Shown one piece after another: positions 19,346 through 60,832 of a DNA stretch of 64,000 nt. This DNA comes from an uncultured Lachnospiraceae bacterium. Lineage in GTDB: Bacteria > Bacillota > Clostridia > Lachnospirales > Lachnospiraceae. The notes below the pieces were generated by a model. It was not told the DNA's origin. It did no database searches and saw nothing but the letters and a program-made list of their open reading frames with translations. The DNA lies in assembly GCA_947173495.1 (NCBI GenBank), contig CAMWFQ010000012.1, positions 1-64,000 of the forward strand. The letters are read 5' to 3'. The translations under genes were made by a program, and so were the position numbers. The number at the start of each line of letters is the position of its first letter. Position 1 is the first letter of the stretch.

Positions 19346-19511
19346 CCAAGCAGGAAAGATTTTCTCCCTGCCGCGTGCGGGGCGCATACTGCGTCAGCAA
19401 CACCTTCATCTGTGCGCCCCTGTTCAATCGAGTAGGGAAGGCTTTTTCTCCCTACTCGCCGTGCGGGGCGCATACTGCGTCAGCAGTAAATCTCCCTGTG
19501 CGCCCCTGCAC
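19346..19511 (+). repeat. Terminator-linked nested-hairpin repeat, array A1 (about 1.9 units)
   Basis: Two tandem units. The complete one (19422-19511) starts AATCGAGTAGGGAAGG, whose CGAGTAGGGA pairs with TCCCTACTCG (stem I). Then comes stem II, GTGC-GGGGCGCA paired with TGCGCCCC-T-GCAC with one bulged T, enclosing a small inner hairpin ACTGC-GTC-AGCAGT. The left unit lacks its AATCGAG start. The array ends against the A-run that is the T-tract of the terminator at 19513. Confidence 0.85.
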
Positions 19512-19512
19512 A

Positions 19513-19542
19513 TAAAAAAAGGGGTGTTGTAAACACCCCTCT
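19513..19542 (-). terminator. Intrinsic terminator of the MsmX-like ATPase gene
   Basis: AGGGGTGTT pairs with AACACCCCT around a GTAA-type loop (19520-19541). It is followed on the minus strand by TTTTTTTATG. Confidence 0.85.
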
Positions 19543-19552
19543 TGATTTGCTA

Positions 19553-20662
19553 CTAGTTTGTAATAACCTGCTCTGTTTCTTTATCAAATACATGAATCTT
19601 ATCAACATCAAATGCAAACTTAATTGTATCGCCAGGTCTTGATGATGTACGGGAATCAACTCTTGCAGTGATCGGGAACTCTTCCAGATCAAAATATAAG
19701 TATACTTCTGCACCAAGCAACTCGTAAACTCTGACTGTTGACTCAAATACACACTTGGCGTTCTTGATGTACTCTTCTGAATCATACACATCCTCAGGAC
19801 GGATACCGAATGTAACCTTCTTGCCTGCATAGCCGCCACTGATAAGCTTTTTGGATTTAGCAGCCGGGAGCGGAATATTCTTGCCTGCAATCTTAAGGCT
19901 TGCCACGTCGCCGTTTACTTCCACTGTTGCGTCCAGGAAGTTCATCTGAGGTGATCCCATAAATCCTGCTACAAACAGGTTCGTGGGTTTCTGATACAGA
20001 TTCTGAGGGCTGTCAACCTGCTGAACAACACCGTCTTTCATAACTACGATTCTGTCACCCAGAGTCATAGCCTCTGTCTGGTCATGTGTTACATAGATGA
20101 TTGTGGTGCCTAATCTCTGATGCAGCTTGGAGATCTCAACACGCATCTGTACACGCAGCTTAGCATCCAAGTTGGAAAGAGGTTCGTCCATAAGGAATAC
20201 CTTAGGGCTACGAACGATAGCACGACCCATGGCAACACGCTGTCTCTGACCACCTGACAAAGCCTTGGGTTTACGATCAAGGAGAGCTGTCAGGTCAAGA
20301 ATCTTAGCAGCTTCTTTCACCATCTTGTCAATTTCATCTTTAGGAACTTTTCTCAATTTAAGACCAAAAGCCATATTGTCATATACTGACATATGAGGAT
20401 ACAGAGCATAATTCTGGAATACCATTGCAATGTCTCTGTCCTTAGGCTCAACGTCATTTACTACTCTGTCGCCGATCTTCAGTTCACCGGAAGAAATATC
20501 TTCCAAACCTGCGATCATACGCAATGTAGTAGACTTACCACATCCTGAAGGACCTACGAAGATGATAAATTCCTTATCTGCAATTTCAAGGTTGAAGTCC
20601 TTTACTGCCTCAAAGCCATTAGGATATCTTTTGTAGATATTCTTTAATGATAAACTTGCCAT
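19553..20662 (-). CDS. msmX: ABC transporter ATP-binding protein, MsmX/UgpC type
   Basis: 369 residues. Walker [10 protein letters not shown] (about 37-45), signature [15 protein letters not shown], Walker [15 protein letters not shown], switch His [12 protein letters not shown] and a C-terminal OB-type domain ([12 protein letters not shown]). It stands alone with no permease or binding protein beside it, its own promoter (20711-20739) and its own terminator. This is the layout of the multitask ATPase MsmX, which energises several sugar importers. Codon use looks like that of a well-expressed gene. It may be shared with importers elsewhere in the genome. Confidence 0.9.
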
Positions 20663-20710
20663 TTCTTAATTGCCTCCTTAAAATTTTGATTCACAATCGA
20701 GTCTGAATGT

Positions 20711-20739
20711 AGTATACAGGAATTTCCGCGTTCTGACTA
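20711..20739 (-). promoter_or_regulatory. Probable promoter of msmX
   Basis: TAGTCA (20734-20739), 17-nt spacer and TATACT (20711-20716) on the minus strand. The -35 match is moderate (4 of 6). Confidence 0.5.
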
Positions 20740-20861
20740 TGCCATTATTCCACAAATATTTCATTTTGTGTTGTTAAATATGCTTACGAAAAATGTCGAT
20801 TTAATGTTTATACAGCAACTTGACCAACGAACTCCAGATTTCCATGGACACTTTGTACAAT

Positions 20862-21635
20862 TTAAATTGTCTTTTCTGTCTCCTCAGTCGGTTCTTCTCC
20901 CGTTTCTTTGATCTCCTGGCTCTCAGCAGTATTCACCTTATCTCCATCATCCATGATATTCTCTGCCGTCTCTTCCCCCTCCAGAGGCTCAAGTGTCCAC
21001 TCTTCATCGCTTACCACCTCTTCCTCCGGCTCAAACCGTTTGAAGGTCTTGTTGTAAAGGAGGGCGCACAGAAATCCGGGACCGGATATTCCAAGCGCAA
21101 AGACAACCGGCATTGCCCGTACAAAAAACGCCGCAACCAGTACCGGAATAATCCAGCACACAATCATAAGAATCGTTTTGGGAAATGCAAGGATTGACAT
21201 AAAAAGAGAATTCCGGAATGTGTTCTTAATCGAGTTATCAAACCGTGCCAGTACAGGAAAAACATGCATGGAGGCAAACAACACAATCAATACTACAGAC
21301 AAAAAGGCAATTCTCACCCATCCTGGAAACTCCAGTGTGGAATATTTGAAAATAAAAAAGTCACCTATCAGAATCACAAACACCAGCAGATAGATCAGCC
21401 AGATCAGTGTTGCCTGTCTGAAATTTTGTCTGAATGATTTAAAAAATGATTTAACAATATAGGTCTCCTCATTTCTGACCATTTTCAGCGCCACATAGTT
21501 CATGGCAGTCAGTGATGCTCCGATTGTAAAGACCGGAATACAGCAGATCAGTGTCAGGATGTTCAAAATCAGCAGATCTGCTAATTTCCCAAGAAATACA
21601 AACAGTGGACTTTCCAAATCAAATAATCTTCCCAT
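20862..21635 (-). CDS. YesL/DUF624-family membrane protein
   Basis: 257 residues. The N-terminal FLGKLADLLILNILTLICCIPVFTIGAS, followed by Y-V-A-L-K-M and K-S-F-F-K-S-F-R-Q-N-F-R-Q, is the signature of DUF624 (YesL-like) proteins. Five to six membrane segments span residues 15-200, then an acidic tail of about 60 residues rich in Glu. Family members are often found near sugar ABC importers or rhamnogalacturonan genes. Here the nearest such gene is the MsmX-like ATPase downstream. Molecular role unknown. The ribosome binding site is GGAGAG. Confidence 0.85.
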   Translation of the reverse strand: MGRLFDLESPLFVFLGKLADLLILNILTLICCIPVFTIGASLTAMNYVALKMVRNEETYIVKSFFKSFRQNFRQATLIWLIYLLVFVILIGDFFIFKYSTLEFPGWVRIAFLSVVLIVLFASMHVFPVLARFDNSIKNTFRNSLFMSILAFPKTILMIVCWIIPVLVAAFFVRAMPVVFALGISGPGFLCALLYNKTFKRFEPEEEVVSDEEWTLEPLEGEETAENIMDDGDKVNTAESQEIKETGEEPTEETEKTI

Positions 21636-21656
21636 AGCGCTCTCTTCTCTCCTGTA

Positions 21657-22910
21657 TCAGCGTGCCTTAAGCTTTTCCGAAACCTGATTATATTGTTGAT
21701 TTAATTTCCGATATGTAATCAAAATTTCTTCAACGCTGGCGTTTACATGTTGTATAATTTCGTCGTAACAATCAAAAAATATTTTGACAAGGGTCTTATT
21801 GTATTTCCCAGCTTCTGCCTCTTTACCGATTATATCCAGCATTTCCTGCGCCTTAAATGCTGACCGGTAGGATCTTTTATCCAGAAGGGCCGTCACTGCA
21901 TCGGCAAGCTGCACAATCTCCTGCTTGCGGTTCATTTGCGCCTCCCGAAGCCTTCTGGGATATCCGCTGCCATCCCCCCGCTCGTGGTGCGCCGCCACAA
22001 TATCTACCACTTCCTTGGCCATTCGTTTGTTCAGAATCCGCTCCGCCAGATGTACATGCATTTTTACTTTTTTATATTCCTCCGGCGTTAAGGCTCTCGG
22101 CGCATTAATGATATTTTTAGGTACGGCTACCATCCCGATATCATGAAGGATCGTTCCATAATACAACTCTTCCTTCTCCAGATTCGTAAGTCCTACCCTT
22201 TGTCCAAGCGTTTCTGCAATGCACATGCTGGTAACCGTATTTACCACTGCCGATTCATTGGTAAAGCCCTGGCAATACATCAGAAGTTCCAGATATTTTT
22301 TCTTATCTTCATTTGTATAGATCATATAGCCGATGATATCATCCAGCTCCTTTTTGTAATCCCCATTCCGGACTTTCTGAAGGATATCATATTTATCTAT
22401 CGCTTCATTAAAAAGCTGAAAGGCTTCTCTGCCGATCACGGTTCCTACCTGCTTCTGGAACATATCCATACTAAATTTATCTCCCAGAGCAACAGAAAAG
22501 ATATCTACCTTTTCAGCCAGACTCAAACAGGCTGTAATATCTTTATATTCAAAATCAAGCGCCTTCAGCTGCGAATAATCGGTATGATGATAGAGTATCA
22601 CCATCGCCAGCTCTTTCAGCGGTGAAAGATGTTTCAGCACAAGATAGCCATAAGTTGCATGGGGCATGGGAGTTTTTAACTCATAGCGTATCATATCTTT
22701 TAAATTTTCTGTTTTGTAGGCTCCTATATCATGAAGAGATGCCAGAAATACCAGATCGGCCAGTTCAAACTTTTCATAGCCGCCCTTACATTCCAGCATC
22801 TTGTACATATAATATGCCACTCTCGATCCATGATCCATCGGCCTGCGATCGATCAGCTTCAGCGTATCCCGCATCAGCAGGAAAATGTCCTTACTATGAA
22901 TATATTCCAT
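21657..22910 (-). CDS. HD-GYP domain protein, probable c-di-GMP phosphodiesterase
   Basis: 417 residues, soluble. It contains two HD-type regions. The first has HDIGAYKTENL at about 65-75 (the HD pair conserved). The second is a full HD-GYP: HDIGMVAVP near 247, HVHLAERIL, then HHERGDGSGYPR near 305-316 and QLADAVTALLD. HD-GYP domains hydrolyse c-di-GMP and depend on a metal centre. The tandem architecture, with no sensor or receiver domain, is unusual. The start is ATG at 22910 (AAAGG eight bases upstream). It lies five bases after the GNAT gene, so the two form an operon with the promoter at 23441. Confidence 0.88.
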   Translation of the reverse strand: MEYIHSKDIFLLMRDTLKLIDRRPMDHGSRVAYYMYKMLECKGGYEKFELADLVFLASLHDIGAYKTENLKDMIRYELKTPMPHATYGYLVLKHLSPLKELAMVILYHHTDYSQLKALDFEYKDITACLSLAEKVDIFSVALGDKFSMDMFQKQVGTVIGREAFQLFNEAIDKYDILQKVRNGDYKKELDDIIGYMIYTNEDKKKYLELLMYCQGFTNESAVVNTVTSMCIAETLGQRVGLTNLEKEELYYGTILHDIGMVAVPKNIINAPRALTPEEYKKVKMHVHLAERILNKRMAKEVVDIVAAHHERGDGSGYPRRLREAQMNRKQEIVQLADAVTALLDKRSYRSAFKAQEMLDIIGKEAEAGKYNKTLVKIFFDCYDEIIQHVNASVEEILITYRKLNQQYNQVSEKLKAR

Positions 22911-22915
22911 ACACA

Positions 22916-23401
22916 CTACCTTTCTGCTAAGATATATTCCATCGGAGTATAAATGATACCTTCCTGTTTCCTTGCCAGTCCTAGATCCTTAAACCCAATT
23001 CTGTGGTAGAAAATCACTGCGTAAGGCGACGCGTTAACTGTCAGCCGTTTTTTCCCGAATTTCCTCTGCACATAACCAGCCATTTCTTCTATTAACGCTC
23101 TTCCGATTCCACATCTGTGCCAGTTTTTATCCACAAACAAAAGGGAGATATGTGTCTCATTCCTCAGCGTGATCATTCCTACCATTCTTTCAGATTCATA
23201 GGCTGTCATCATCAGGTATGTTCCTTCTGTAAACATTCTCTTCAGGCCCGTATCTGTGATAAAATCCTCAAAGCTTCTGATTCCCTCCAGCGTATAATCA
23301 GCCGCTTCAAATTCCAGAAACGTTTTCCATGCCAGTCCCATGGCTTCTTCCCATTCATCCTCATGAGCAAAACGTATCTCATAAGCCATTTCACCGCTCA
23401 T
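22916..23401 (-). CDS. GNAT family acetyltransferase
   Basis: 161 residues. A single GNAT fold with the acetyl-CoA-binding loop at RCGIGRALIEEM (about 115-126) and the C-terminal YAVIFYHRIGFKDLG motif that closes the fold. The acceptor substrate is unknown. The start could be ATG at 23401 or at 23389 (MAYEIRF). Neither has a strong ribosome binding site. It is co-transcribed with the HD-GYP gene. Confidence 0.85.
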   Translation of the reverse strand: MSGEMAYEIRFAHEDEWEEAMGLAWKTFLEFEAADYTLEGIRSFEDFITDTGLKRMFTEGTYLMMTAYESERMVGMITLRNETHISLLFVDKNWHRCGIGRALIEEMAGYVQRKFGKKRLTVNASPYAVIFYHRIGFKDLGLARKQEGIIYTPMEYILAER

Positions 23402-23440
23402 TGTTCAATCATTTCATCCCTTCATTGCTGTTAATCTAAT

Positions 23441-23469
23441 ATTATAGCAGATTGTACCTCACTTTACAA
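23441..23469 (-). promoter_or_regulatory. Sigma-A promoter of the GNAT/HD-GYP operon
   Basis: TTGTAA (23464-23469), 17-nt spacer and perfect TATAAT (23441-23446) on the minus strand. GATTGTA and TACAATC form a small dyad over the spacer and -35 region. Confidence 0.65.
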
Positions 23470-23528
23470 TCAAAGGACTTCTTAAATTGTGTAAATTATT
23501 CATAAAAAACTATTTTAAGAACCGGAAC

Positions 23529-24521
23529 CTATGTTGCCGATTCTGTTCCAACCTGATTCACCAGAGGCAGTCCATTTTCAAGCGCATAGGCATTTTCAAG
23601 AGTCGTACGTGCAATCGCCCGCATTGCTTCCCGGGTAAAGAACCCCATATGAGAAGTGACAAGCACATTAGGAAACGTCATTAACCGTGCCAGGTTATCG
23701 TCAGTTATGATGTCGCTGGATCGATCCTCATAAAAAACGCCTTCTTCCTCTTCATAAACATCGAGCCCCACTCCGCCAAACCGTCCCGCCAGCAGCCCGT
23801 CAATCAAAGCTTCTGTTTCAATCAGACCGCCGCGGGAAGTATTTACCAGATAGACGCCTTTCTTCATCATATTTATCGTTTCCCTGTTAATGATATGTCT
23901 GGTATCCGAGTTAAGAGGACAGTGCAGGGAAATAATGTCAGAACTTTTAAAAAGCTTCTCCAGAGATACATATTCTGCCTCAAGTCCCCCTGCCGGGAAA
24001 GGATCATAGCAAATGACATGCATCTGGAAACCGTTCAATATTCTGATCATAGCCTGACCGATTTTTCCTGTACCGATCACACCAGCCGTTTTCTCATACA
24101 GATCTATTCCCATAAGTCCGTTCAGGCTCATATTAAAGTCCCTGGTTCTGTTATAGGCTTTATGAGTCAGTCTGTTGACCGTAAGAAGCATCGCCATTGT
24201 AAACTCCGCAACAGCTTCGGGCGAATAGCTGGGAACTCTCAGTATTACGATTTTATCCTCCGCCGCTTTTACATCTACGTTGTTAAATCCTGCGCTTCGC
24301 AATAAAATAGCTTTGACATTCATCTCATACAGCTCGTCTATCATCGCCGCATCTACATAATCATTGACAAAGATACAGATCGCATCATGTCCCTTTGCCA
24401 TGAAAATGGTTTCCTGATTGCAGGCCGCCTCAATGAAATGAATGTCAAAACCGTATTCTTTTGCCATAGGCTCAAACCAGATCCTGTCGTAAGGTTTTGT
24501 TCCATAAAATGCAATTTTCAT
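23529..24521 (-). CDS. ldhA: D-lactate dehydrogenase (2-hydroxyacid dehydrogenase family)
   Basis: 330 residues, the usual length. It reduces pyruvate to D-lactate with NADH. Rossmann motif GTGKIG at 150-155, then HCPLNSDTRHIIN, the catalytic NTSRGG with Arg, GLDVYEEE and the C-terminal SHMGFFTREA, where the HxGFFT signature separates D-lactate dehydrogenases from other members of the family. Start ATG at 24521 after GGGAGGATGTCAT. Codons further upstream are not coding. A fermentative end-step enzyme, consistent with the anaerobic lifestyle inferred for the host. Confidence 0.88.
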   Translation of the reverse strand: MKIAFYGTKPYDRIWFEPMAKEYGFDIHFIEAACNQETIFMAKGHDAICIFVNDYVDAAMIDELYEMNVKAILLRSAGFNNVDVKAAEDKIVILRVPSYSPEAVAEFTMAMLLTVNRLTHKAYNRTRDFNMSLNGLMGIDLYEKTAGVIGTGKIGQAMIRILNGFQMHVICYDPFPAGGLEAEYVSLEKLFKSSDIISLHCPLNSDTRHIINRETINMMKKGVYLVNTSRGGLIETEALIDGLLAGRFGGVGLDVYEEEEGVFYEDRSSDIITDDNLARLMTFPNVLVTSHMGFFTREAMRAIARTTLENAYALENGLPLVNQVGTESAT

Positions 24522-24605
24522 ATGACATCCTCCCTGATTGATAAGTTTGCATGTCATATATTATTTGCTGAAAAGCAAGTATTTTATTCTCTTGTCCTCA
24601 CACCT

Positions 24606-25115
24606 TTAAAACAAATTATTAAAAAAGCTCTTTACAGAATCTTTCAGACCGCTGAAAAAACTGCTTATCACATTGGATGCAGCATTTTTTACCGCTCCGG
24701 TCACCACCTCATCCACATGATCAACAAAGTCAGCTCCATACTCCTGGTACATACTTTCTGTTTTTTCTACAATATACTCCGCCGAAAAACCCAGAGCCTC
24801 CAGCTTTTCCATTGTATCTACCAGATTTTCCGCATCCTCTCTGCTGACTTCAACACCGAACTTTTCTTCTCCTTCCCGAATAGCATCTTTCAGTCCTTCC
24901 TCCGAGTTCAGATTTCCTTCCTCTACCTGTTCTTTCAAAAAGGAAAACACTTCTTTTGCCGTCTCATCATCCATACTGTCAAATGCTGCCGACAGCTGCC
25001 GTTTTACCTGATCCACAAGGTCAGATGCGTCCTGTGAGGATGACGCATAAGTCATTGTCGGCAGGAATAAAAACAGGGCGGAAACAAACAAAATTACCCA
25101 AACTTTCTTTTTCAT
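24606..25115 (-). CDS. Exported alpha-helical protein (DUF1002-like)
   Basis: 169 residues. A signal peptide (VWVILFVSALFLFLPTMTYASS, cleavage about residue 25) is followed by an all-helical acidic domain. The segment FGVEVSREDAENLVDTMEKLEALGFS resembles the core of DUF1002 (YpuA-like) proteins, but the family assignment is tentative. The C-terminal 30 residues are amphipathic and aromatic (SFFSGLKDSVKSFFNNLF), which might contact the membrane. The ATG at 25115, placed after GAGGAGATC, is preferred over the ATG 15 bases upstream. It lies between ldhA and a hydrolase gene in the same direction. Confidence 0.6.
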   Translation of the reverse strand: MKKKVWVILFVSALFLFLPTMTYASSSQDASDLVDQVKRQLSAAFDSMDDETAKEVFSFLKEQVEEGNLNSEEGLKDAIREGEEKFGVEVSREDAENLVDTMEKLEALGFSAEYIVEKTESMYQEYGADFVDHVDEVVTGAVKNAASNVISSFFSGLKDSVKSFFNNLF

Positions 25116-25152
25116 AACAGATCTCCTCATATATCAAACACCAGTGTCAAAG

Positions 25153-26097
25153 CTAAAGCTGATATTCTTTCACTCTTTCCATAATCCATGGATAGATATC
25201 TTCGTATACCTGTTGTCGGTTTTTTTCGTTTAAAAGTTCGTGTCTGTCTCCCGGATAAAGCTTTAAGGAAATATGTTCCATACCGGCCTTCTTAAAGTCT
25301 CCAAAGGCTTTCTTTACACCGTCTCCGTAATTTCCCACCGGATCCATATCTCCGGCTATAAAATATACCGGAAGTTTTTCAGGCATCATCTTTAAATTTT
25401 CTTCCTGGTTCAAACGGTCAAGCAGCGTGAATAATGTTCTGAACCCATTAACCGTAAATATAAAACCACACAGCTTATCTTCCACATACCTCTCCACAAC
25501 TTTCTCATCCGTACATAACCAGTCAAAGGGTGTCTTTGCCTCAGGTATTTTTTTGTTATAGGAGCCAAATGCCATTTTATCAATGAAAACCGCCCTGTGC
25601 TTCTGTCCCAGAAAAAGTCCCTGCAGCGCTGTCATCAGTCTGCACAGCTTTACCAGCGCAGGAGGCTGCGAACCTGTTCCGCACAGAATGGCTCCCTGAA
25701 TACCCGTCCCATAGCGAAAAAGATAGTTACGCAGAATAAACGACCCCATACTATGTCCTAATATTACATAAGGCACTCCCGGATATTCTTCCTGGGTAAT
25801 CTTTTTCAATCGATGTACATCTCTGACCACCACCGTTGCCGGATCCTGTTCACAAAAATACCCGTAAATTCCATTTGAGCCAACGCTTTTTCCATGTCCT
25901 AAATGGTCATCGCCCGTCACCAGTATCCCCTTCTCTCCCAGATACTGTGCCAGCTCTTCATACCGTTCTATATATTCCGCCATTCCATGGACAATCTGAA
26001 GAATACAAACCACCTTTCCTTCAGGGATCCATCTGACAGCATGAAGCTTTGATTTACCATCTCTGGACTCGAATGTAAATTCTTCTTTTTTTACCAT
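25153..26097 (-). CDS. Alpha/beta hydrolase, monoacylglycerol lipase-like
   Basis: 314 residues. Hydrolase_4 (serine aminopeptidase S33-like) fold. VHGMAEYIERYEELA near 34-48, the nucleophile elbow GHSMGS near 112, the acid in YFIAGDMDPVG, and the base in LYPGDRHELLNE near 292. The pattern of HGMAE and GDRHE is that of lysophospholipases and monoacylglycerol lipases. Cytoplasmic, with no signal peptide. The ribosome binding site is GGGAGG. Confidence 0.85.
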   Translation of the reverse strand: MVKKEEFTFESRDGKSKLHAVRWIPEGKVVCILQIVHGMAEYIERYEELAQYLGEKGILVTGDDHLGHGKSVGSNGIYGYFCEQDPATVVVRDVHRLKKITQEEYPGVPYVILGHSMGSFILRNYLFRYGTGIQGAILCGTGSQPPALVKLCRLMTALQGLFLGQKHRAVFIDKMAFGSYNKKIPEAKTPFDWLCTDEKVVERYVEDKLCGFIFTVNGFRTLFTLLDRLNQEENLKMMPEKLPVYFIAGDMDPVGNYGDGVKKAFGDFKKAGMEHISLKLYPGDRHELLNEKNRQQVYEDIYPWIMERVKEYQL

Positions 26098-26150
26098 TAA
26101 TACCTCCCAATCTTATCTGGCGTGTGTCAATGGAGCCCAACCAGTACACA

Positions 26151-28130
26151 CTAGCAGATCTCTGCTCCCGAAGGCATATTCTTCTCAGGGATGAGCAGTG
26201 CCAGATTCCCTTCCTTATCCTCTGCGCACAGCAACATACCTTCCGAAACCACTCCTGCCAGCGTAGCGGGTTTCAGATTTACCAGCACCATAACCTTCTT
26301 TCCCACCATCTCTTCTGCACTGTAGTGCTGTTTAATGCCAGAGACAATCTGCTTTATCTGGCTGCCAATGCGCACCTTGGAGCATAACAGCTTTTTGGAT
26401 TTGGGCACCTCTTCACAGGCAACGATCTCGCCTACCTGAAACTGCATTTTATCAAACATTTCATAAGTAATCTCGTTCTTTGCCGCTATATCGATCACTT
26501 CCTCTTTTTTATCGACTTTATCAGCGGAATCCTGGTGCTGCTCCCCCGCTGCCCTTTCTTCGAACATGGCATTTACCTTCTCGATCACCTCTTTCGCATC
26601 CAGCCTTGCAAACAGAATTTCGGGTTTTTCTGTCACTTTATTCCCGTCAGGATACAGCCCAAAGGTCTCCAGCTGATCAAACTCTCTGATCTGCGTATTC
26701 AACTGCTGTGCAATTTTCTGCGCTGTAGAAGGCATAAACGGTTCCAGCAAAGAGGCGCCTGTCAAAATACCCTCCACCAGATTGTAGAGCACTGTGGAAA
26801 GACGATCCTTTTTGTCCTCCTGTTTGGCAAGTACCCATGGCTCCGTCTCATCTATATACTTATTGCATCGCTTAAACAGCGTGAAAATTTCTGTAAGAGC
26901 ATCTGCTACCCGAAGCTCTTCCATTTTAGCGGCGACCTTTCTGTATGCTCCCGTCGCCACAGCCTTTAATTCCTCATCCACCGCTTCCCTGCAGCCGGGA
27001 TCTCTTATCACACCTCCAAAATACTTATTGCTCATGGAGATCGTTCTGTTTACGAGATTTCCCAGAGTATTTGCAAGATCTGAATTAACCCGCTCCACCA
27101 CAAGCTCCCACGAAATTGTTCCATCGTTGTCAAAGGGCATTTCATGCAGGACAAAATAACGCACCGCATCCACTCCGAAAAACTTTACCAGATCGTCTGC
27201 GTAGATCACGTTTCCCTTTGATTTGCTCATTTTGCCATCTCCCTGTAATAGCCAGGGATGCCCGAATATCTGTTTCGGCAGAGGCTCTCCCAGGGCCATC
27301 AGGAAAATTGGCCAGTAGATCGTATGAAAACGAATAATATCTTTTCCAATCAGATGCAGATCCGCAGGCCACAGCTTTTTATACTGTTCACTGCTCTCTC
27401 CCCCGCACTCATAACCAATGCCTGTAATGTAATTGGTCAGTGCGTCCAGCCAGACATAGACCACATGCCTGTCGTCAAAATCCACCGGAATTCCCCATTT
27501 AAAAGAGGTTCTTGATACGCACAGATCCTGAAGTCCCGGCAGAAGGAAATTATTCATCATTTCGTTTCTCCTGGAAACCGGCTGGATGAATTCCGGATGA
27601 GTATTAATATGCTCGATCAGCCTGTCCGCATACTTACTCATTTTAAAAAAATAGGCTTCCTCCCTGGCGGGTTTCACCTCTCTGCCGCAGTCCGGGCATC
27701 TGCCGTCTACCAGCTGTGACTCCGTCCAGAAGGATTCACAGGGAGTACAGTATAGACCCTCATAGGAGCCTTTATAAATATCTCCCTGATCATAAAATCG
27801 CCTGAAGATCTTCTGTACCTGCTTTTCGTGGTAATCATCCGTGGTTCTGATGAAGTGATCGTAGGAGGTGTCCATCAGATTCCACAGCTCCTTGATGGTT
27901 TTAACCACATTATCCACATATTCTTTTGGCGTAACGCCTGCCTCCTGCGCCTTCAGCTCAATTTTCTGACCATGCTCGTCAGTGCCGGTCTGAAAATAAA
28001 CATCATACCCCTCTTTTCTCTTAAATCTGGCAATGCTGTCTGCCAGCACAATCTCATAACTGTTTCCGATATGAGGCTTTCCCGAAGTATAGGCAATTGC
28101 CGTTGTAATATAATATTTCCCTTTATTCAC
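26151..28130 (-). CDS. metG: Methionine--tRNA ligase
   Basis: 659 residues. Class I synthetase: HIGN (HIGH motif) near 20, a zinc knuckle with CTPC and CPDC (about 126-147), KMSKSKGN near 300 and an anticodon-binding helical domain. A linker rich in Lys/Asp leads to a C-terminal EMAPII-like tRNA-binding domain (FQVGEIVACEEVPKSKKL), which gives the dimeric long form. GTG start at 28130 with CAGGAGGAAAAAG. Only 29 bp separate it from the transketolase gene, so no T-box leader can be present and it probably depends on upstream transcription. Confidence 0.97.
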   Translation of the reverse strand: MNKGKYYITTAIAYTSGKPHIGNSYEIVLADSIARFKRKEGYDVYFQTGTDEHGQKIELKAQEAGVTPKEYVDNVVKTIKELWNLMDTSYDHFIRTTDDYHEKQVQKIFRRFYDQGDIYKGSYEGLYCTPCESFWTESQLVDGRCPDCGREVKPAREEAYFFKMSKYADRLIEHINTHPEFIQPVSRRNEMMNNFLLPGLQDLCVSRTSFKWGIPVDFDDRHVVYVWLDALTNYITGIGYECGGESSEQYKKLWPADLHLIGKDIIRFHTIYWPIFLMALGEPLPKQIFGHPWLLQGDGKMSKSKGNVIYADDLVKFFGVDAVRYFVLHEMPFDNDGTISWELVVERVNSDLANTLGNLVNRTISMSNKYFGGVIRDPGCREAVDEELKAVATGAYRKVAAKMEELRVADALTEIFTLFKRCNKYIDETEPWVLAKQEDKKDRLSTVLYNLVEGILTGASLLEPFMPSTAQKIAQQLNTQIREFDQLETFGLYPDGNKVTEKPEILFARLDAKEVIEKVNAMFEERAAGEQHQDSADKVDKKEEVIDIAAKNEITYEMFDKMQFQVGEIVACEEVPKSKKLLCSKVRIGSQIKQIVSGIKQHYSAEEMVGKKVMVLVNLKPATLAGVVSEGMLLCAEDKEGNLALLIPEKNMPSGAEIC

Positions 28131-28159
28131 CTTTTTCCTCCTGAAAACATATAAGCACT

Positions 28160-29107
28160 TTAAAACTTTTTCAAAAACTCTTTTACTTTTTTATATACGC
28201 CTTCTCCATCCAGGCCGTATTTGATAACAAGCGCACCCGCAGACCCGGATTCCCCAAACACATCATTGATTCCGATTCTGCATACGGGTACCGGACAGCT
28301 TTCCGCCAGAGCCTCGCATACTGCGCCGCCCAGTCCTCCAATAACAGAATGTTCTTCTGCCGTCACTACTTTTCCTGTTTTTCCAGCGCTTGTTGTAATC
28401 AGGTCACTGTCCAGCGGCTTAATGGTATGGATGTTGATCACTTCTGCGCTGATTCCCTCTTTCTCCAGCCTCTCGGCAGCCTCCAGGGCAGACGCAACCA
28501 GAATACCCGTTGCCACGATTGTCACATCGCTGCCTTCCCTCAACATAACTCCCTTCCCCATTTCAAAGGAATAATCCTCTCTGTCATTGATCACCGGAAC
28601 CGCCGCACGGCCAAAGCGCATATAGACAGGTCCTTCATAATCCAGCGCCGCTTTCACACATGCCCTGGCTTCCACCGCATCAGATGGATTCAGAATTGTC
28701 ATCCCGGGAATCGTCCGCATCAGTGCAATATCCTCGTTACATTGATGAGATGCGCCATCCTCTCCCACTGTTATTCCTGCGTGGGTGGCTCCAATCTTAA
28801 CATTCAGATGCGGATAACCGATAGAATTTCTTACCTGCTCAAAAGCTCTTCCAGACGCAAACATAGCAAAGGTACTTGCCACAGGAATTTTCCCTGTCAG
28901 AGACAATCCTGCGGCAATTCCCATCATGTTTGCCTCTGCAATTCCACAGTCAATGTGTCTGTCTGGAAATTTCTTTTTAAATACACTTGTCTTAGTGGCC
29001 GCTGCCAGATCTGCATCCAGCACTACCATATCAGGATAATCCTCCCCAAACTCCGCCAGAGCCTTGCCATATGCTTCTCTGGTTGCAATCTTCTTTATTT
29101 CTGACAT
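28160..29107 (-). CDS. Transketolase, C-terminal subunit
   Basis: 315 residues. It carries the pyrimidine-binding (VVLDADLAAATKTS, SLTGKIPVASTFAMF, GITVGEDGASHQ) and C-terminal domains of transketolase (ATGILVASALEAAERL, VVTAEEH). It pairs with the separate N-terminal subunit encoded just upstream. Their reading frames overlap by 13 bases. Split transketolases are common in Clostridia and need both chains for activity. Confidence 0.93.
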   Translation of the reverse strand: MSEIKKIATREAYGKALAEFGEDYPDMVVLDADLAAATKTSVFKKKFPDRHIDCGIAEANMMGIAAGLSLTGKIPVASTFAMFASGRAFEQVRNSIGYPHLNVKIGATHAGITVGEDGASHQCNEDIALMRTIPGMTILNPSDAVEARACVKAALDYEGPVYMRFGRAAVPVINDREDYSFEMGKGVMLREGSDVTIVATGILVASALEAAERLEKEGISAEVINIHTIKPLDSDLITTSAGKTGKVVTAEEHSVIGGLGGAVCEALAESCPVPVCRIGINDVFGESGSAGALVIKYGLDGEGVYKKVKEFLKKF

Positions 29108-29934
29108 AATGCTTCACCAATCCTTTCCAAGTCCGCCATAGCAACCTTATACTCTTCGTCATTCGGGGCTTTACCATGCCAGTCCACCTGCCCCTCCATA
29201 AAGGAGACTCCCTTGCCCTTTAGCGTATGGGCAATAATCGCCGTGGGCATCCCCTTTGTCTCACGCGCTTCTTTAAAGGCCGCGCGGATCTGTTCCATAT
29301 CATTTCCATCCGCCAGATTAATCACATGAAAATTAAAGGCTTCAAACTTTTTGTCAATGGGATAGGGTGAACATACATCTTCGATCCTCCCATCGATCTG
29401 CATTCCATTATTATCGACAATCACCACAAGGTTATCCAGTTTTCGGTATCCGGCAAACATAGCGGCTTCCCATACCTGGCCCTCTTCAATCTCACCATCC
29501 CCCAGCAACGTATAAACCCGGAAATCTTTTCCTGACAGTTTCGCCCCCAGTGCCATACCATTTGCTGCAGAAATTCCCTGTCCAAGAGAACCGGATGACA
29601 TATCCACACCAGGTACGTGCTGCAGACATGGATGCCCCTGAAGGTAAGATCCCAAATGACGCAGCGTCGGCAAATCCTCCACCGGAAAATATCCTCTGTT
29701 TGCCAGAGCTGAATATAGTCCCGGCGCCGTATGTCCTTTGGACAGCACAAAACGGTCTCTCTCTTCCATCTTCGGATTCGCGGGATCAATATTCATCTCC
29801 TCAAAATAAAGATATGTAAAAATATCTGCTGCAGATAAGGACCCGCCAGGATGTCCGGCCTTTGCTCCGTGTACGGCAGTCACAATTCCCTTTCTGACTT
29901 CATTTGCACGCTTTTTCAATTCTAAAGTATCCAT
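29095..29934 (-). CDS. Transketolase, N-terminal subunit
   Basis: 279 residues. The thiamine diphosphate domain: AGHPGGSLSAADI, SKGHTAPGLYSAL, and GDGEIEEGQVWEAAMFA followed by NNGMQIDG (the GDG-NN cofactor motif). Start ATG at 29934 after GAGAGGAAAC; upstream methionines lie in the leader. Transcribed from the promoter at 30039-30067. The polycistronic run is tkt-N, tkt-C, metG, hydrolase. It joins the non-oxidative pentose phosphate pathway to glycolysis. Confidence 0.93.
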   Translation of the reverse strand: MDTLELKKRANEVRKGIVTAVHGAKAGHPGGSLSAADIFTYLYFEEMNIDPANPKMEERDRFVLSKGHTAPGLYSALANRGYFPVEDLPTLRHLGSYLQGHPCLQHVPGVDMSSGSLGQGISAANGMALGAKLSGKDFRVYTLLGDGEIEEGQVWEAAMFAGYRKLDNLVVIVDNNGMQIDGRIEDVCSPYPIDKKFEAFNFHVINLADGNDMEQIRAAFKEARETKGMPTAIIAHTLKGKGVSFMEGQVDWHGKAPNDEEYKVAMADLERIGEALCQK

Positions 29935-30038
29935 GTTTCCTCTCATTTCCGCTATATCCCATATAGCTAATCGTACTAGCTGCACTTCATTGGAAACATT
30001 GTATTTCCCCTGATAATACAGCTCTTATGCTCTTCCTA

Positions 30039-30067
30039 ATGGTATGTTATTCCACATTCTTTGTCAA
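30039..30067 (-). promoter_or_regulatory. Promoter of the transketolase operon
   Basis: Perfect TTGACA (30062-30067), 17-nt spacer and TACCAT (30039-30044) on the minus strand. A 22-bp perfect A/T dyad, CTGTATAAAAAATTTTATACAG, lies just upstream at 30076-30097 and could be an operator or the upstream gene's terminator. Confidence 0.6.
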
Positions 30068-30089
30068 TAATATACCTGTATAAAAAATT

Positions 30090-30962: not shown

Positions 30963-30990
30963 TGTAATGTCCTTCCGTTTCATATAGAAT

Positions 30991-31037: not shown

Positions 31038-31089
31038 CATTATCTTATCATATCATACAATTTAACAGAAAAGAAAGGATGATATCACT

Positions 31090-31822: not shown

Positions 31823-31849
31823 AACGCTTTTTTAGCCGTAGATTATCTG

Positions 31850-32058
31850 TCAGCTTTTGCTGACTTTTTTCCTCCAAGTGCCCGTGTACAATCGAGCAGG
31901 GTACTTCTCCCCTACTCGCGCGCGGCCCGCATGCTGCATTAGCAACAAATTTCCTTATGTGGGCCTGCGTAATCGAGTAGGGAAGGTTTATCTTCCACTA
32001 CTCGCGCGCGGCCCGCATGCTGCGTTAGCAGCAAATTTCCTTATGCGGGCCTGCGCAT
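31850..32058 (+). repeat. Terminator-linked nested-hairpin repeat, array A2 (about 2.4 units)
   Basis: A truncated right half (31850-31889, ending TGCCCGTGTAC) followed by two full units (31890-31969 and 31970-32058). The full units have stem I CGAGTAGGGAAGG or CGAGCAGGG with a CTACTCG partner, and stem II GCGC-GGCCCGCA paired with TGCGGGCC-T-GCGC, enclosing GCTGC-GTTA-GCAGC. The truncated part is of the GGGTGCCC type found in array A3, not of the type of its own neighbours. It abuts the T-tract of the aldolase terminator. Confidence 0.85.
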
Positions 32059-32059
32059 A

Positions 32060-32090
32060 AAAACAGTCTGCCTTACGGCAGACCATTTTT
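32060..32090 (-). terminator. Intrinsic terminator of the aldolase gene
   Basis: GTCTGCC (32066-32072) pairs with GGCAGAC (32077-32083). On the minus strand it is followed by TGTTTTTATG. Confidence 0.85.
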
Positions 32091-32109
32091 ATATCACTTT
32101 CATTTAGCT

Positions 32110-34072: not shown

Positions 34073-34266
34073 TCTATATGCGGGCCTGTGCAATCGAGCA
34101 GGGGAAACGCTTTCTTCCCTGCTCGCGCGCCGGGCACCCGTCAGCTCCTGCTGACATTTCTCCTCTGGGTGCCCGTGTGCAATCGAGTAGGGAAGGTTTT
34201 CTCCCTGCTCGCGCGCCGGGCACCCGTCAGCTCCTGCTGACATTTCTCCTCTGGGTGCCCGTGTGC
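34073..34266 (+). repeat. Terminator-linked nested-hairpin repeat, array A3 (about 2.1 units)
   Basis: A short right-end remnant of the GCGGGCC type (34073-34090) followed by two near-identical units (34091-34179, 34180-34266). Stem I is CGAGCAGGGGAA or CGAGTAGGGAAG paired with a CCCTGCTCG partner. Stem II is C-GGGCACCC paired with GGGTGCCC-G, with an outer GCGC/GTGC pair and bulged T, enclosing TCAGC-TCCT-GCTGA. The remnant belongs to the stem type of A2 and A4. It abuts the T-tract of the crh terminator. Confidence 0.85.
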
Positions 34267-34267
34267 A

Positions 34268-34304
34268 TTAAAAAGGAGCAAAGCTTTTGTACCGGCTTTG
34301 CTCT
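34268..34304 (-). terminator. Intrinsic terminator of the hprK-crh cluster
   Basis: GAGCAAAGC (34276-34284) pairs with GCTTTGCTC (34295-34303). On the minus strand CCTTTTTAATG follows. It ends the hprK to crh run. Confidence 0.85.
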
Positions 34305-34316
34305 CTTTTATTATTT

Positions 34317-45428: not shown

Positions 45429-45480
45429 TCAATCGAGCAGGGAACATTTTTGATCTGCCCGCGCGGACCGCATTCACACA
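45429..45480 (+). repeat. Terminator-linked nested-hairpin repeat, remnant A5 (about 0.6 unit)
   Basis: Starts ATCAATCGAGCAGGGAACA, with a degraded stem I partner CTGCCCG, and stops after the left arm of stem II (GCGCGGACCGCATTC). Its right boundary is against the T-tract side of the flagellin terminator, like the other copies. It is the only copy with a broken stem II. Confidence 0.65.
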
Positions 45481-45482
45481 AG

Positions 45483-45521
45483 AAAAGAGCTGTACCCTGC
45501 TGAGCAGGATACAGCTCTTTT
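45483..45521. terminator. Bidirectional terminator between pyrG and the flagellin gene
   Basis: AAAAGAGCTGTA (45483-45494) pairs with TACAGCTCTTTT (45510-45521), with CCTGC/GCAGG extending the stem past one mismatch. T-runs occur on both sides. Confidence 0.85.
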
Positions 45522-45539
45522 CAGTTAATTCATTTGACT

Positions 45540-56849: not shown

Positions 56850-56863
56850 ATGGTTTTCCCTCA

Positions 56864-57756: not shown

Positions 57757-58467
57757 TTAAATTCCTCTTCCAATTGTCAATGACATAAAATAAATTTTAC
57801 CGACACCTGCTCCCTTTAAAATCCTTGCCATTGAATCAATGGTACTGCCTGTAGTATATATATCATCTATAATTACAATCGTATTTAATTTTACATCATT
57901 TTGACAGATTTTGAAAGCCTTTTTCAAATTATTTTGCCTTTCTCCATAGCTGAGATCCTTAAGAGGCCTGGTATGTTTTATTCTTCGTATCAATGAAGTA
58001 TTTACAGGGATTCCGGAGCACTTTGACAACTCCCTTGCGATCAGTTCCGCCTGATTATACCCTCGTTTCCTTTTTCTGGATGAATGGATTGGGACCGGCA
58101 CCAGGGCATCCGGTCCTTTCGCCTCTAACCAGTTTTTCCGCTTTTCATATAATTCCGTTCCGTAAAACCGCGCATATTCCATTCTTCCTCCATACTTAAA
58201 TCTGAAAAGCGAATCCGCCATACTTCCATAGTCATATAAGGCGGTACCCTGGATATATTCATGTCTCTTTTTCTCGCAGTCACTGCAGTACTCCTGCTTT
58301 GAATTTTGTAACTGTTTTCCACATTTCATGCAACAAGGGTCTTTTATATATATGATGCTTTCCCGGCACTTTTTACACACAGCTTCACCCGGCCGGTCTG
58401 ATATCTCATCACATATCACACATCGTCTGGGAAACACCAGATCCAATACATTCCATTTAAATATCAT
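57757..58467 (-). CDS. comFC: ComFC-like phosphoribosyltransferase-family protein
   Basis: 236 residues. N-terminal double zinc ribbon (CVICDEISDRPGEAVCKKC, CMKCGKQ, CSDC), a helical linker, then a type I phosphoribosyltransferase domain with RKRKRGYNQAELIARELS and VIIDDIYTTGSTIDSMARIL (PRPP loop). The ATG at 58467 follows GGAGG by only three bases; a TTG six codons upstream is an alternative. It overlaps the recD2 stop by 11 bases. ComFC is needed for DNA uptake in competent bacteria, but homologues occur widely in bacteria not known to be competent. Confidence 0.9.
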   Translation of the reverse strand: MIFKWNVLDLVFPRRCVICDEISDRPGEAVCKKCRESIIYIKDPCCMKCGKQLQNSKQEYCSDCEKKRHEYIQGTALYDYGSMADSLFRFKYGGRMEYARFYGTELYEKRKNWLEAKGPDALVPVPIHSSRKRKRGYNQAELIARELSKCSGIPVNTSLIRRIKHTRPLKDLSYGERQNNLKKAFKICQNDVKLNTIVIIDDIYTTGSTIDSMARILKGAGVGKIYFMSLTIGRGI

Positions 58468-60712
58468 TTGCCTCCATTTCCGCAATTTCTTTTATTCTGT
58501 CACACAGACTTGTATAACGCTTATGCTGGTTTTCATTTCTGATCATTTCCTGTATCGTTTGCCGGCTGCCCAAAATCGTAACACATTTTTGAGCCCGGGT
58601 CACTGCAGTGTACAAAATATTTCTATTCAAAAGCATCCTGGGACCGGACATAATTGGAAGGATAACCGCCGGATACTCACTCCCCTGGGACTTATGTATC
58701 GTTACAGCATAGGCAAGCTCAATTTCATCCAGACCTGAAAAAGCATACTCTACCCGCCTGTGTTCATCATATTCTACCGTAAGAACCTGGGCCGCTTCGT
58801 CAATCTCCATTATAATACCCATATCGCCGTTAAAAATTCCCATCCCCTTATCCACGGCTATTCCATGCTTACTGACAATTTCCCATGGAATCTGGTAATT
58901 ATTTTTAATCTGCATGACCTTATCCCCTGTCCGGAATATCCTTTCCCCTGATTGATATTCCACCTTATCCGGGGCGGGAGGATTCAGATACCGCTGAAGA
59001 ATCCCGTTTAAAGTCTCAACTCCCAGATTCCCTTTTCTCATGGGAGTAAGAACCTGAATATCAAAAGGCTCTGCCTGAACATAGGGAGGGAGTTTCTCTC
59101 TGATTAACTGGATCATATGTTTATAAATAACATTAACATCTTTTCTTTCCAGAAAGAAAAAGTCCCGGCTTTTGTTGTTAAGTTCAATATCCTCCCCCTG
59201 ATTTATTTTATGCGCGTTTACTACAATATCACTTTCTCCCGCTTGTCTGAAAATCCGATTCAGAATCACCACAGGAAACATTCTGCTGTCTATCAGATCT
59301 TTCAAAACCCGGCCCGGCCCCACGCTGGGAAGCTGATCCACATCTCCAACCATGATCAGCCTGGTTCCCACACTGACAGCCTCAAGAAGTGCTTTAAAAA
59401 GGAATATATCAACCATAGACATTTCGTCTACAATAATTACGTCGGCCTCAAGGGGATTACTTTCATTTCGTTCAAACTGTCCTCCTTTCTCTTCATCTGA
59501 CTTTGCAGCCACAACACCGTTTACTTCCAGCAGCCGATGAATGGTACGGGCTTCAAATCCCGTAGCTTCTGTCATCCTTTTGGCCGCCCTTCCTGTAGGC
59601 GCCGCCAGAAGAATATCCATACCTTCCTTCTCGAAATAACTGATCATTGTATTGATCGTAGTCGTTTTTCCCGTACCAGGTCCTCCGGATAAAATCATAA
59701 TTCCTGATTTAAGACTTTGTAATACCGCCTTTCTCTGAAGTTCGTCCAACTCTATTCTCTGTTCCTTTTCAAGTGCCTGCAATGATTCTTTCATTTTTTC
59801 TTCAGAAAAAATTTTTTCTGTCTCAACAGAAACATTCAAATCATGCAGCATCCGTGCGCAGCTGAGTTCTGCATAATAATAAGCAGGTGCATAAACTCTT
59901 CTTTCCTCTTCCTGTATTTTGATCACAAGTTTCTTGTCGATAGCAAGATTCGAAAAATGTTGCTCTATTATTTCTTCCGGGAGCCTCAAAAGATCTGCTG
60001 TCCGTCTTTTGAGGATCGTATCCGGCAGATACATATGTCCTTCCGCTGCCGCCTGCAAAATCATATAAAGGATTCCGCTCCTTATTCGAAAATCAGAGTC
60101 GGTATGAATTCCTATTCTGGATGCAATCTCATCTGCTGTTTTAAATCCGATTCCTTCAATATCCTCAGCCAGTTGATAGGGATTTTCCTTCATAATGCTG
60201 TACAGATCCATTCCGTAAACACGATATATTTTTATTGCCAGTGTATTGGAAATACCGTACTTCTGCAGGAAGACAAATGCCTCCCTCATATCCTTTTTTT
60301 CAACCATCTGCTGTGCGATATCTCTTGCTTTTCTTTCACTGATGCCCTTGACTTCAATCAGTCTTTCCGGCTCTTCCTCAATAATTCTGAAAGTATCCTC
60401 TTTGAATTTTTTTATAATTCTGGCAGCCAGAGATTCGCCGATCCCCTTAATCGCTCCTGATCCCAGATATCGCCTCATACTTTCCACGTCATCGGGCTCC
60501 ACTACCCGGAGATTTTCTGCCTTGAACTGATATCCATAAAGGGGATGCTCCACAAACCTCCCTTTTAATTCCAGCATTTCTCCATTTTCAATGTCGGGAA
60601 AAGTCCCTACGCAGACAATCTCTTCTCCCTCCGATACAAGAGATACGACCCCATATCCATTTTCTTTATTCTGATAGATCATATGATCCACATATCCTGT
60701 AACCGTATCCAA
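58457..60712 (-). CDS. recD2: RecD2-type 5'-3' DNA helicase
   Basis: 751 residues. An N-terminal OB-like region (YVDHMIYQNKENGYGVVSLV), tandem HhH motifs (IKGIGESLAARIIKKF, VKGISERKARDI, IEGIGFKTADEIASRIGI) at about 100-215, then SF1B helicase: Walker A GGPGTGKTTT near 345, Walker B VIIVDEMSMVD, VGDVDQLPSVGPGRVL and the C-terminal YAVTIHKSQGSEYPAVILP. A frame stays open upstream through repeat DNA, so a longer protein would be an artefact. The real start is TTG at 60712, preceded by GGGGGAT. It acts on DNA repair and replication-fork stability in bacteria lacking RecBCD. Operon recD2-comFC-yvyF. Confidence 0.93.
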   Translation of the reverse strand: MDTVTGYVDHMIYQNKENGYGVVSLVSEGEEIVCVGTFPDIENGEMLELKGRFVEHPLYGYQFKAENLRVVEPDDVESMRRYLGSGAIKGIGESLAARIIKKFKEDTFRIIEEEPERLIEVKGISERKARDIAQQMVEKKDMREAFVFLQKYGISNTLAIKIYRVYGMDLYSIMKENPYQLAEDIEGIGFKTADEIASRIGIHTDSDFRIRSGILYMILQAAAEGHMYLPDTILKRRTADLLRLPEEIIEQHFSNLAIDKKLVIKIQEEERRVYAPAYYYAELSCARMLHDLNVSVETEKIFSEEKMKESLQALEKEQRIELDELQRKAVLQSLKSGIMILSGGPGTGKTTTINTMISYFEKEGMDILLAAPTGRAAKRMTEATGFEARTIHRLLEVNGVVAAKSDEEKGGQFERNESNPLEADVIIVDEMSMVDIFLFKALLEAVSVGTRLIMVGDVDQLPSVGPGRVLKDLIDSRMFPVVILNRIFRQAGESDIVVNAHKINQGEDIELNNKSRDFFFLERKDVNVIYKHMIQLIREKLPPYVQAEPFDIQVLTPMRKGNLGVETLNGILQRYLNPPAPDKVEYQSGERIFRTGDKVMQIKNNYQIPWEIVSKHGIAVDKGMGIFNGDMGIIMEIDEAAQVLTVEYDEHRRVEYAFSGLDEIELAYAVTIHKSQGSEYPAVILPIMSGPRMLLNRNILYTAVTRAQKCVTILGSRQTIQEMIRNENQHKRYTSLCDRIKEIAEMEANDI

Positions 60713-60742
60713 AAGATCCCCCTTTTCCAATTTTGCTTTATT

Positions 60743-60832
60743 GAAATCGAGTAGAGGAATGTACTTCTCCACTACTCGCGCGCGGCCCGCATGCTGCTTC
60801 AGCAGCAAACTTCCTTTAGCGGGCCTGCGCAC
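60743..60832 (+). repeat. Terminator-linked nested-hairpin repeat, single copy A4
   Basis: One complete unit. AAATCGAGTAGAGGAA, stem I CGAGTAG paired with CTACTCG. Stem II GCGC-GGCCCGC paired with GCGGGCC-T-GCGC, enclosing GCTGC-TTC-AGCAGC. It runs from just upstream of recD2 to the T-tract of the terminator at 60832. It belongs to the same stem type as A2. Confidence 0.85.

Follow-up and report, generated by a model that had tools for sequence, protein, structure and literature searches.

A two-hairpin repeat family adjoining intrinsic terminators in an uncultured Lachnospiraceae bacterium

We analyzed a window of 64,000 nucleotides from an uncultured Lachnospiraceae bacterium (assembly GCA_947173495.1, contig CAMWFQ010000012.1, positions 1 to 64,000), in which an initial annotation had described an intergenic repeat at five places (A1 to A5). 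Units were present at all five, seven of them full length, each place lying beside the terminator of a gene on the opposite strand. The features are as follows, with the gene products taken from Pfam and the terminators read from the sequence, by eye except at A1.

19344..19425, + strand, older and decayed distal unit of A1 (R1 score 48.7 bits)
19426..19513, + strand, terminator-proximal unit of A1 (R1 score 91.1 bits; fold -47.3 kcal/mol)
19514..19541, - strand, intrinsic terminator of the MalK-type ABC ATPase gene 19553-20662 (-)
About 31845..31889, + strand, remnant of an older unit of A2, stem II only (by eye)
31890..31970, + strand, distal unit of A2 (R1 score 72.5 bits)
31971..32058, + strand, terminator-proximal unit of A2 (R1 score 99.8 bits)
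32059..32085, - strand, terminator of the class II fructose-bisphosphate aldolase gene 32110-33045 (-)
34073..34091, + strand, remnant of an older unit of A3 (by eye)
34092..34180, + strand, distal unit of A3 (R1 score 69.4 bits)
34181..34268, + strand, terminator-proximal unit of A3 (R1 score 73.7 bits)
34270..34305, - strand, terminator of the HPr gene 34317-34577 (-)
45431..45473, + strand, decayed relic A4, reduced to stem I plus the beginning of stem II (R1 score 22.7 bits, E 0.011)
45480..45522, - strand, terminator of the flagellin gene 45540-46301 (-)
60745..60832, + strand, single unit A5 (R1 score 92.5 bits)
60834..60877, - strand, terminator of the rod-binding protein gene 60924-61280 (-)

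The T-run of the ABC ATPase terminator directly adjoins A1, and by eye a terminator-like hairpin stands at the same place in relatives. The three arm types, three inner-stem types and bulged T before GCGC/GYGC described earlier were all found, save for the arm pair GGCCCGCA/TGCGGGCC that had been given to A2 and A4. A4 has no 3' arm, so that the pair is wrong there, and the second copy of the A2-type pair is A5, reading GGCCCGC/GCGGGCC.

The covariance model and the sequence define an element of 87 to 90 nt with two hairpins side by side. Hairpin 2 carries a bulged T, kept in 140 of 146 units of this genome, 28 of 29 from other genera and 90 of 99 in a third unit set, and a one-sided internal loop of 10 to 11 nt, kept in 139/146, 28/29 and 95/99, respectively. 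A MITE of a DDE insertion sequence would have terminal inverted repeats and a target duplication. By eye, units start with AATCGAG and end with GCGCAT, which are not mutual inverted repeats. No constant target duplication was seen by eye, though one copy (genome G020) is without the AT dinucleotide and is flanked by T on both sides; the precise ends are therefore provisional, as is any target duplication.

This is a real repeat family that reaches far beyond the window. The exact motif AATCGAGYAGGG occurs 177 times in the genome versus once for the reversed pattern, and 311 versus 15 times with up to one mismatch. The covariance model found at least 152 copies at E ≤ 0.01, a lower bound because 150 of 2,277 candidates were scored. 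Only 3 of 99 sampled arrays lay inside called genes, the hairpins being imperfect and many copies intergenic. No Rfam family covered the units at gathering scores across the window, nor at E ≤ 5 within 18900-34500. The literature searched, supplements excluded, held no description of this family, although it may be among the RNA candidates of PMC8040213.

The idea that the arms change while the shape stays, drawn from five loci, held when more were aligned, which was the refuting condition set in the initial annotation. Among 146 distinct units of this genome, 25 of 27 pairs showed double changes (481 cells versus 166 ± 12 after shuffling); among 29 units from 20 other genera, 23 of 27 pairs did (177 cells versus 47 ± 5), with shuffles that ignore phylogeny and alignments fitted to the covariance model. 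GU and AC mismatches were balanced (99:100 in this genome, 18:13 in other genera and 59:67 in the third set), except at one base pair near the bulge, with 86 GU versus 3 AC, which symmetric DNA pairing alone does not explain. Given the lack of overall strand preference apart from this pair, the maintained form is probably DNA hairpins rather than RNA. Thus, of the earlier proposal of selection on structure, the maintenance of structure stands; an RNA is not implied, and part of the arm pairing could be made by palindrome correction at replication.

Of 99 arrays sampled, 81 had the 3' end of the element directly against the T-run of the intrinsic terminator of a gene on the opposite strand; random intergenic points were so placed in 50 of 894 cases (Fisher p 1e-65). 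Among the 18 failures, one lay at a contig end and two before a weaker unit (L012:18669 and L103:4643); the rest were plain misses. No terminator lay at the 5' side in any of the 99 arrays, a soft control because older units often occupy that side. In the named genomes, terminators stood at the 3' side in 69 of 82 cases and at the 5' side in 7 of 82. Read on its top strand, a unit usually has an A-run rather than a T-run after it, and in most cases the gene next to it is antisense.

Tandem units directly abutted at 48 of 51 junctions. Neighbors had different arms in 26 of the 51, and of the 88 units in arrays only 24 were most closely related to another unit of their own array. Considering the best-scoring 150 of 169 units, with a scoring model built from good units, the terminator-proximal unit outscored its neighbor in 38 of 51 pairs (p 6e-4), and Watson-Crick pairing was 0.917 in proximal versus 0.830 in distal units. 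Arrays grow at the terminator side. Nearest copies in other arrays had a median identity of only 89%, and activity in this genome is therefore not very recent. Orientation follows the replication strand: 84 of 99 arrays were oriented opposite to the leading strand. Gene orientation by itself would produce most of this bias, since in 66 of 95 cases the gene upstream of the array likewise runs against the unit. Between convergent genes, 18 arrays sat by the leading-strand gene versus 4 by the other (p 0.004).

Relatives of the element appeared in 20 of 149 other genomes of the family (one genome per genus, 29 candidates scored in each), as the initial annotation had suggested looking for with a covariance model. 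A class-wide search of 291 genomes recovered this genome only, with 15 candidates scored per genome, so that copies could be missed. In 23 other genomes of the genus, exact-motif counts ranged from 0 to 22. Orthologous sites are without the element in most relatives examined. After gene 19553-20662, where this genome has two units, one of 29 relatives had a single unit at the same T-run and 28 had none by eye; a covariance search of 20 longer relative stretches agreed. The HPr site had no unit in eight relative sequences, nor had the aldolase site in one. These empty sites, the terminator and orientation rules and the end-on growth of arrays had been overlooked in the initial annotation. One unit used as a query had no match in plasmid and phage records. 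In IMG/VR, a 15-base motif occurred in 42 stretches, 4 of which carry a full-length, high-scoring unit; weak partial matches were found in two other stretches and at a second place in one of the four.

Candidates for a mobilizing enzyme were judged by presence or absence across genomes, and none of the families tested (Y1/RAYT, Y2, group II maturase and integron integrase) was supported as the mover. The Y1 transposase (PF01797) had no match in this genome; it occurred in 10 of 28 genomes without tracking the units (G087, G169, G181, G052 and G150 have units and no Y1). Twelve Y1 loci inspected had no units, and one RAYT-like locus (G043) was flanked, by eye, by unrelated repeats of its own. 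The maturase domain GIIM was without match in this genome and nine other unit-bearing genomes; it occurred in 6 of 20 genomes, three with units (G043, G087 and G150). This genome has two RVT_1 genes: one also encodes an AEP-TOTE primase domain and is next to a cas1 gene, and the other lies beside an RT-2 RNA. The IS91-like Y2 HUH family (PF04986) was absent here and present in 3 of 16 genomes: G002, with no exact motif, and G043 and G149, with units. No integron integrase exceeded the TIGR02249 cut-off in 14 genomes; weaker matches occurred in all 14 and likewise in 14 control genomes. An ordinary tyrosine recombinase could in principle be the mover. The largest clusters listed of recurrent genes beside units (40 and 14 members) were, by eye and without family annotation, ordinary genes and translated repeats. 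No complete autonomous copy appeared among 217 stem I occurrences, 110 nt being read past each unassigned one. Listed model matches contained 202 of them; among the remaining 15 are the relic at A4, stems that are degraded or stand alone, and one palindrome read on both strands. Another of the 15 (L336) starts an intact-looking unit absent from the list.

REP sequences are short intergenic hairpins in many copies, single or in tandem groups, with a stem mismatch or bulge and a conserved GTAG-like tetranucleotide at the hairpin foot, and are moved in trans. The element resembles REP/BIME repeats and their RAYT (Y1 HUH) in its short intergenic hairpins, many copies, tandem groups and imperfect stem, but has two different hairpins per unit, 87 to 90 nt, insertion after terminators and no PF01797 in the genome. 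As for the tetranucleotide, GTAG or GCAG lies within stem I and not at its foot, and the unit begins with AATC. The integron attC site folds as a single strand, with an extrahelical base and an unpaired spacer, and its arrays grow at one end. The element as proposed here would share these traits, but no cassettes were seen and, as above, no integrase. Group IIC introns have a terminator stem-loop just upstream of their insertion site, and those without endonuclease rely on host replication (PMC7923331). The element likewise sits after the terminator T-run in the terminator sense, but is 87 to 90 nt long, without ribozyme or maturase. The BOX, RUP and SPRITE repeats of Streptococcus pneumoniae are small, structured and mobile, one terminator-like, and cluster together (PMC10969869); as far as their description there goes, and not by sequence, they are set apart by another host and no strict post-terminator rule.

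We consider that the element is quite likely a non-autonomous, REP-like mobile DNA element targeting terminators. A unit would insert directly after the T-run in one direction, giving, on the sense strand of the gene, the usual order of gene, terminator hairpin, TTTTT and ATGCGC...element. Later copies would enter the same T-run, between the terminator and the older copy, so that arrays would grow there while the more distant units decay. An enzyme supplied in trans would most likely read folded single-stranded hairpins (T bulge, GYGC foot and one-sided internal loop) rather than stem letters, with selection presumably acting at the transposition step; shape would therefore stay while arms drift. 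The bias to the terminator of the leading-strand gene points to the single-stranded DNA of replication forks as the probable place of insertion.

It seems improbable that the units are transcribed as a small RNA, 3' UTR element or mRNA stabilizer whose fold is selected. Strong covariation, stable folds and position at gene ends would agree with this, and the asymmetric pair near the bulge would suit a top-strand RNA, but the other counted pairs have no strand preference, presence at the tested site is not conserved, the following A-run and antisense gene do not fit, older copies lose pairing and no Rfam family matches. We give as little credit to a mutational origin, in which template switching at replication copies arm onto arm (quasipalindrome correction) in any repeat. 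Intrastrand switching works between arms lying close together, as they do here, and in a second subtype a third hairpin varies among copies of one genome and is still paired by eye. However, the same process would be expected to remove the bulged T and the loop asymmetry as well; both persist in the proportions given above and argue for selection, and terminator-distal units lose pairing.

A host function is similarly doubtful; units would then be kept behind strongly expressed genes of the leading strand to back up the terminator, to insulate, or to provide gyrase or nucleoid sites. The strand bias of arrays and the genes that units follow in the window (aldolase, HPr, flagellin, rod-binding protein and transporter ATPase) speak for it; nearly all relatives lack the unit at the sites examined, the motif counts within the genus are far below those of this genome, and units decay away from the terminator.

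More tentatively, and with the odds somewhat against it, the mobile element may belong to a superfamily of single-stranded DNA hairpins in this gut-bacterial family, moved by an undescribed shape-reading enzyme that is neither HUH nor a group II reverse transcriptase, with the terminator hairpin and T-run as landing site on the lagging-strand template and end-on addition. If so, successive insertions would be preserved in layers at a single terminator. The apparent ordering of arrays in time could make them useful as lineage records. In one small element, present in many gut-bacterial genera and with no known mover, a DNA shape that is conserved comes together with an exact landing site, the T-run of intrinsic terminators, and with replication polarity; the mover, once found, would yield a compact shape-guided DNA insertion system.

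The initial annotation had described a repeat family at five loci of the window (A1 to A5). Repeats were indeed present at all five, but A4 proved to be a relic without its 3' arm, and remnants of older units open A2 and A3. The full-length units are as follows.

19344-19425, full-length unit, A1
19426-19513, full-length unit, A1
31890-31970, full-length unit, A2
31971-32058, full-length unit, A2
34092-34180, full-length unit, A3
34181-34268, full-length unit, A3
60745-60832, full-length unit, A5

The window also contains a bacterial large SRP RNA (17015-17209, + strand, 118.5 bits). The genome from which the window comes (G000) has 177 occurrences of the pattern AATCGAGYAGGG and a single one of its reverse. 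A covariance model derived from 13 units picked by hand recovered at least 152 copies in this genome (150 of 2277 candidates scored), and 169 units at E ≤ 1e-4 in 1,242,163 bases of it (61 stretches, many of them picked for holding units, so that the density is not unbiased). The best 150 of these 169 units, used for the statistics on this genome below, make up 99 arrays, 62 of a single unit and 37 with two to five. Contig C2 breaks inside an array holding several near-identical units (L026:8747-9236), and draft assemblies may therefore undercount recent copies.

Each unit begins with AAT, followed by stem I, for which 9 pairs were counted, a spacer of 1 to 3 bases, and hairpin II. The latter has a foot of 4 pairs (GCGC/GYGC), a bulged T on the 3' side, 8 to 9 further pairs, a 10- to 11-nt loop on the 3' side only, and an inner hairpin with a loop of mostly 4 nt. 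In the three alignments analyzed (own genome, twenty other genera, and named public genomes), the bulged T was found in 140/146, 28/29, and 90/99 distinct units, and the 10- to 11-nt loop in 139/146, 28/29, and 95/99. The arms had been said to covary within a conserved shape, and this was borne out in all three sets. Within the own genome, double changes affected 25 of the 27 pairs, with 481 double-change cells versus 166 ± 12 after shuffling (0/500 shuffles as high). The figures were 23/27 pairs and 177 cells versus 47 ± 5 for the twenty other genera (29 units from 28 loci, out of 70 listed matches; 95.9% of cells paired) and 24/27 pairs and 337 cells versus 97 ± 10 for the named genomes. Sliding the partners by 1 to 3 columns lowered the double-change cells to 20 to 123, 13 to 30, and 25 to 75, respectively. 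The exact size of the covariation is inflated by alignments that had been fitted to the model and by shuffling that took no account of phylogeny. One shape is common to units whose stem letters differ considerably.

A fold kept at the RNA level should tolerate G-U above A-C on the transcribed strand. The GU:AC ratios were 99:100, 18:13, and 59:67 with two special pairs left out. One of these, the third foot pair beside the T bulge, had 86 GU and 3 AC over the three sets. C-A is frequent at the other, the first inner pair (72/146 in the own genome, where this pair alone would tip the mismatch totals to A-C), which we take as often unpaired. The overall mismatch picture is DNA-like, apart from one strand-specific position, the foot pair, which may mark the strand that the enzyme reads. 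Some mismatches must have arisen by decay once a unit had inserted, and such decay is symmetric no matter what the former function was.

The 3' end of the unit is usually GCGCAT, followed mostly by an A-run and then by a gene-specific inverted repeat. On the other strand, these are the intrinsic terminator of a gene, with its T-run running into the unit. A test asking for a T-run no more than 4 nt from the junction, together with a hairpin at least as stable as -6 kcal/mol, was passed by 81 of the 99 arrays on the 3' side versus 50/894 random intergenic points. On the 5' side none of the 99 passed, although this control is less strict, as older units are frequently located there. Among the 18 failing arrays, 1 ends at a contig end and 2 are followed by a weaker unit. 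For the named genomes (80 listed of 109 stretches), 82 of 89 arrays were testable; the 3' side passed in 69 of these and the 5' side in 7. According to a home-made gene finder, the 3'-side gene points toward the unit in 76 of the 93 arrays with a call, a bias that is partly general gene orientation, since the 5'-side gene also points against the unit in 66/95; 3/99 arrays fell inside a called gene.

No more than three of the array genes had orthologues in the relatives' DNA analyzed. After the MalK-type ABC ATPase gene (19553-20662, - strand), where the own genome has two units, inspection by eye found a single unit at the same T-run in 1 of 29 relatives (G020), while the other 28 had a terminator-like hairpin without a unit, some of them with other small repeats. 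A model search of 20 longer stretches placed a unit at that site in G020 only, plus two elsewhere in G189. The unit was absent from 8/8 relative sequences shown for the HPr site and from the one for the aldolase site. Also by eye, the ATPase site of G197 (L211) carries a different, near-perfect palindrome of ~60 bp (GCGCGAGCAACGAGCC...) directly after the same terminator T-run; the own genome has comparable sequence near L010:8044-8081 and L106:10506. At the same site, L232 (G200) and L260 (G198) have tandem short hairpin repeats after the terminator (GGGCGGCTCGCAAAGCG..., AAAGATAATCGCAAAGCGATTTTC), and the region behind terminators may thus be a common landing place for small hairpins in this genus. 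Two TwoAYGGAY RNA matches (RF01731) lie near the orthologous site in G003 (L226:1160-1324 and 788-950; 87.5 and 79.1 bits), and this RNA might be worth examining as a comparable mobile element.

Neighboring units abut without a gap at 48/51 junctions. Of the 88 units that share an array with others, no more than 24 are closest to a member of that array, and in 26/51 neighbors the stem II arms begin with a different set of five bases. Tandem duplication alone thus does not account for most arrays, but it does seem to account for some, such as the near-identical run in L026. The terminator-nearer unit had the higher model score in 38/51 neighbor pairs (p 6e-4) and a Watson-Crick pairing of 0.917 versus 0.830, and AT before the T-run, the rule at terminator junctions, is absent within arrays. 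These data fit repeated insertion at one T-run, with the newest copy beside the terminator. By GC skew, 84/99 arrays are oriented against the leading strand, much of which is expected because most genes are leading. Convergent gene pairs, with both terminators on offer, are a fair test, and there 18 arrays lay at the leading-strand gene and 4 at the other (p 0.004). This suggests that insertion uses single-stranded DNA at the replication fork, with a possible contribution from differences in expression.

Across the family, 21 of the 150 sampled genomes carried units (the own genome among them), as did 1/291 of the class sample (the own genome; shallow search); within the genus, 23 other genomes had exact-motif counts between 0 and 22. 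A public scan detected them in at least 109 stretches; 57 of the 80 listed rows have Lachnospiraceae, the family to which the window is inferred to belong, in the title, the remainder being Butyrivibrio, Hungatella, Roseburia, Dorea, Eubacterium, Clostridium, Ruminococcus, one Bacillus MAG, and unplaced bacteria. Four IMG/VR viral contigs hold a full-length unit (L142:601-689, L162:8079-8167, L150:14051-14139, and L157:5984-6072) within nearly identical flanks, possibly a sign that a phage or prophage lineage harbors the element. A second subtype (G149, G087, G126, G090, G050, and others), recognized by eye, shares hairpin II, differs in hairpin I, and has in addition a small motif, in many cases with a GGA loop. 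Most of its loci also have a third hairpin, with an A-run next to or overlapping that of the apparent terminator. In G149 (L122, L190, L191, and L192) its basal arms are copy-specific yet paired and the A-runs merge. This hairpin is possibly a guide pairing with the target T-run.

Searches for Y1 transposases, group II maturases, Y2 transposases, and integron integrases, in genomes of which several are drafts, identified no mobilizing enzyme. Y1 is absent from the own genome, and its presence elsewhere does not track the units; at the one RAYT-like locus read, in G043, other repeats flank it. Group II maturase is missing from the own genome and nine other unit-bearing genomes (G020, G055, G149, G169, G181, G126, G052, G099, and G050) and present in three (G043, G087, and G150). 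Y2 is absent from the own genome and most unit-bearing genomes tested, being present in G043 and G149, and no integron integrase exceeded the cut-off in 14 genomes. Ordinary tyrosine recombinases, present in 14/14, are conceivable movers. The enzyme may also have been lost, given a median identity of 89% to the nearest copy at another array. The own genome encodes reverse transcriptase and AEP-TOTE primase domains in one long open frame of 775 residues or more (C5:212140-212760, L240), adjoined by a separate cas1 gene, and, on the window's own contig, a reverse transcriptase (C12:105316-105975, L241) whose immediate upstream region matches RT-2 RNA (79.4 bits). Short length, folding, and dispersal are traits that the element shares with REP sequences, and its landing site resembles that of group IIC introns, but by the tests run it belongs to neither. 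It is a new and structurally conserved element, probably a non-autonomous mobile hairpin that lands behind intrinsic terminators.
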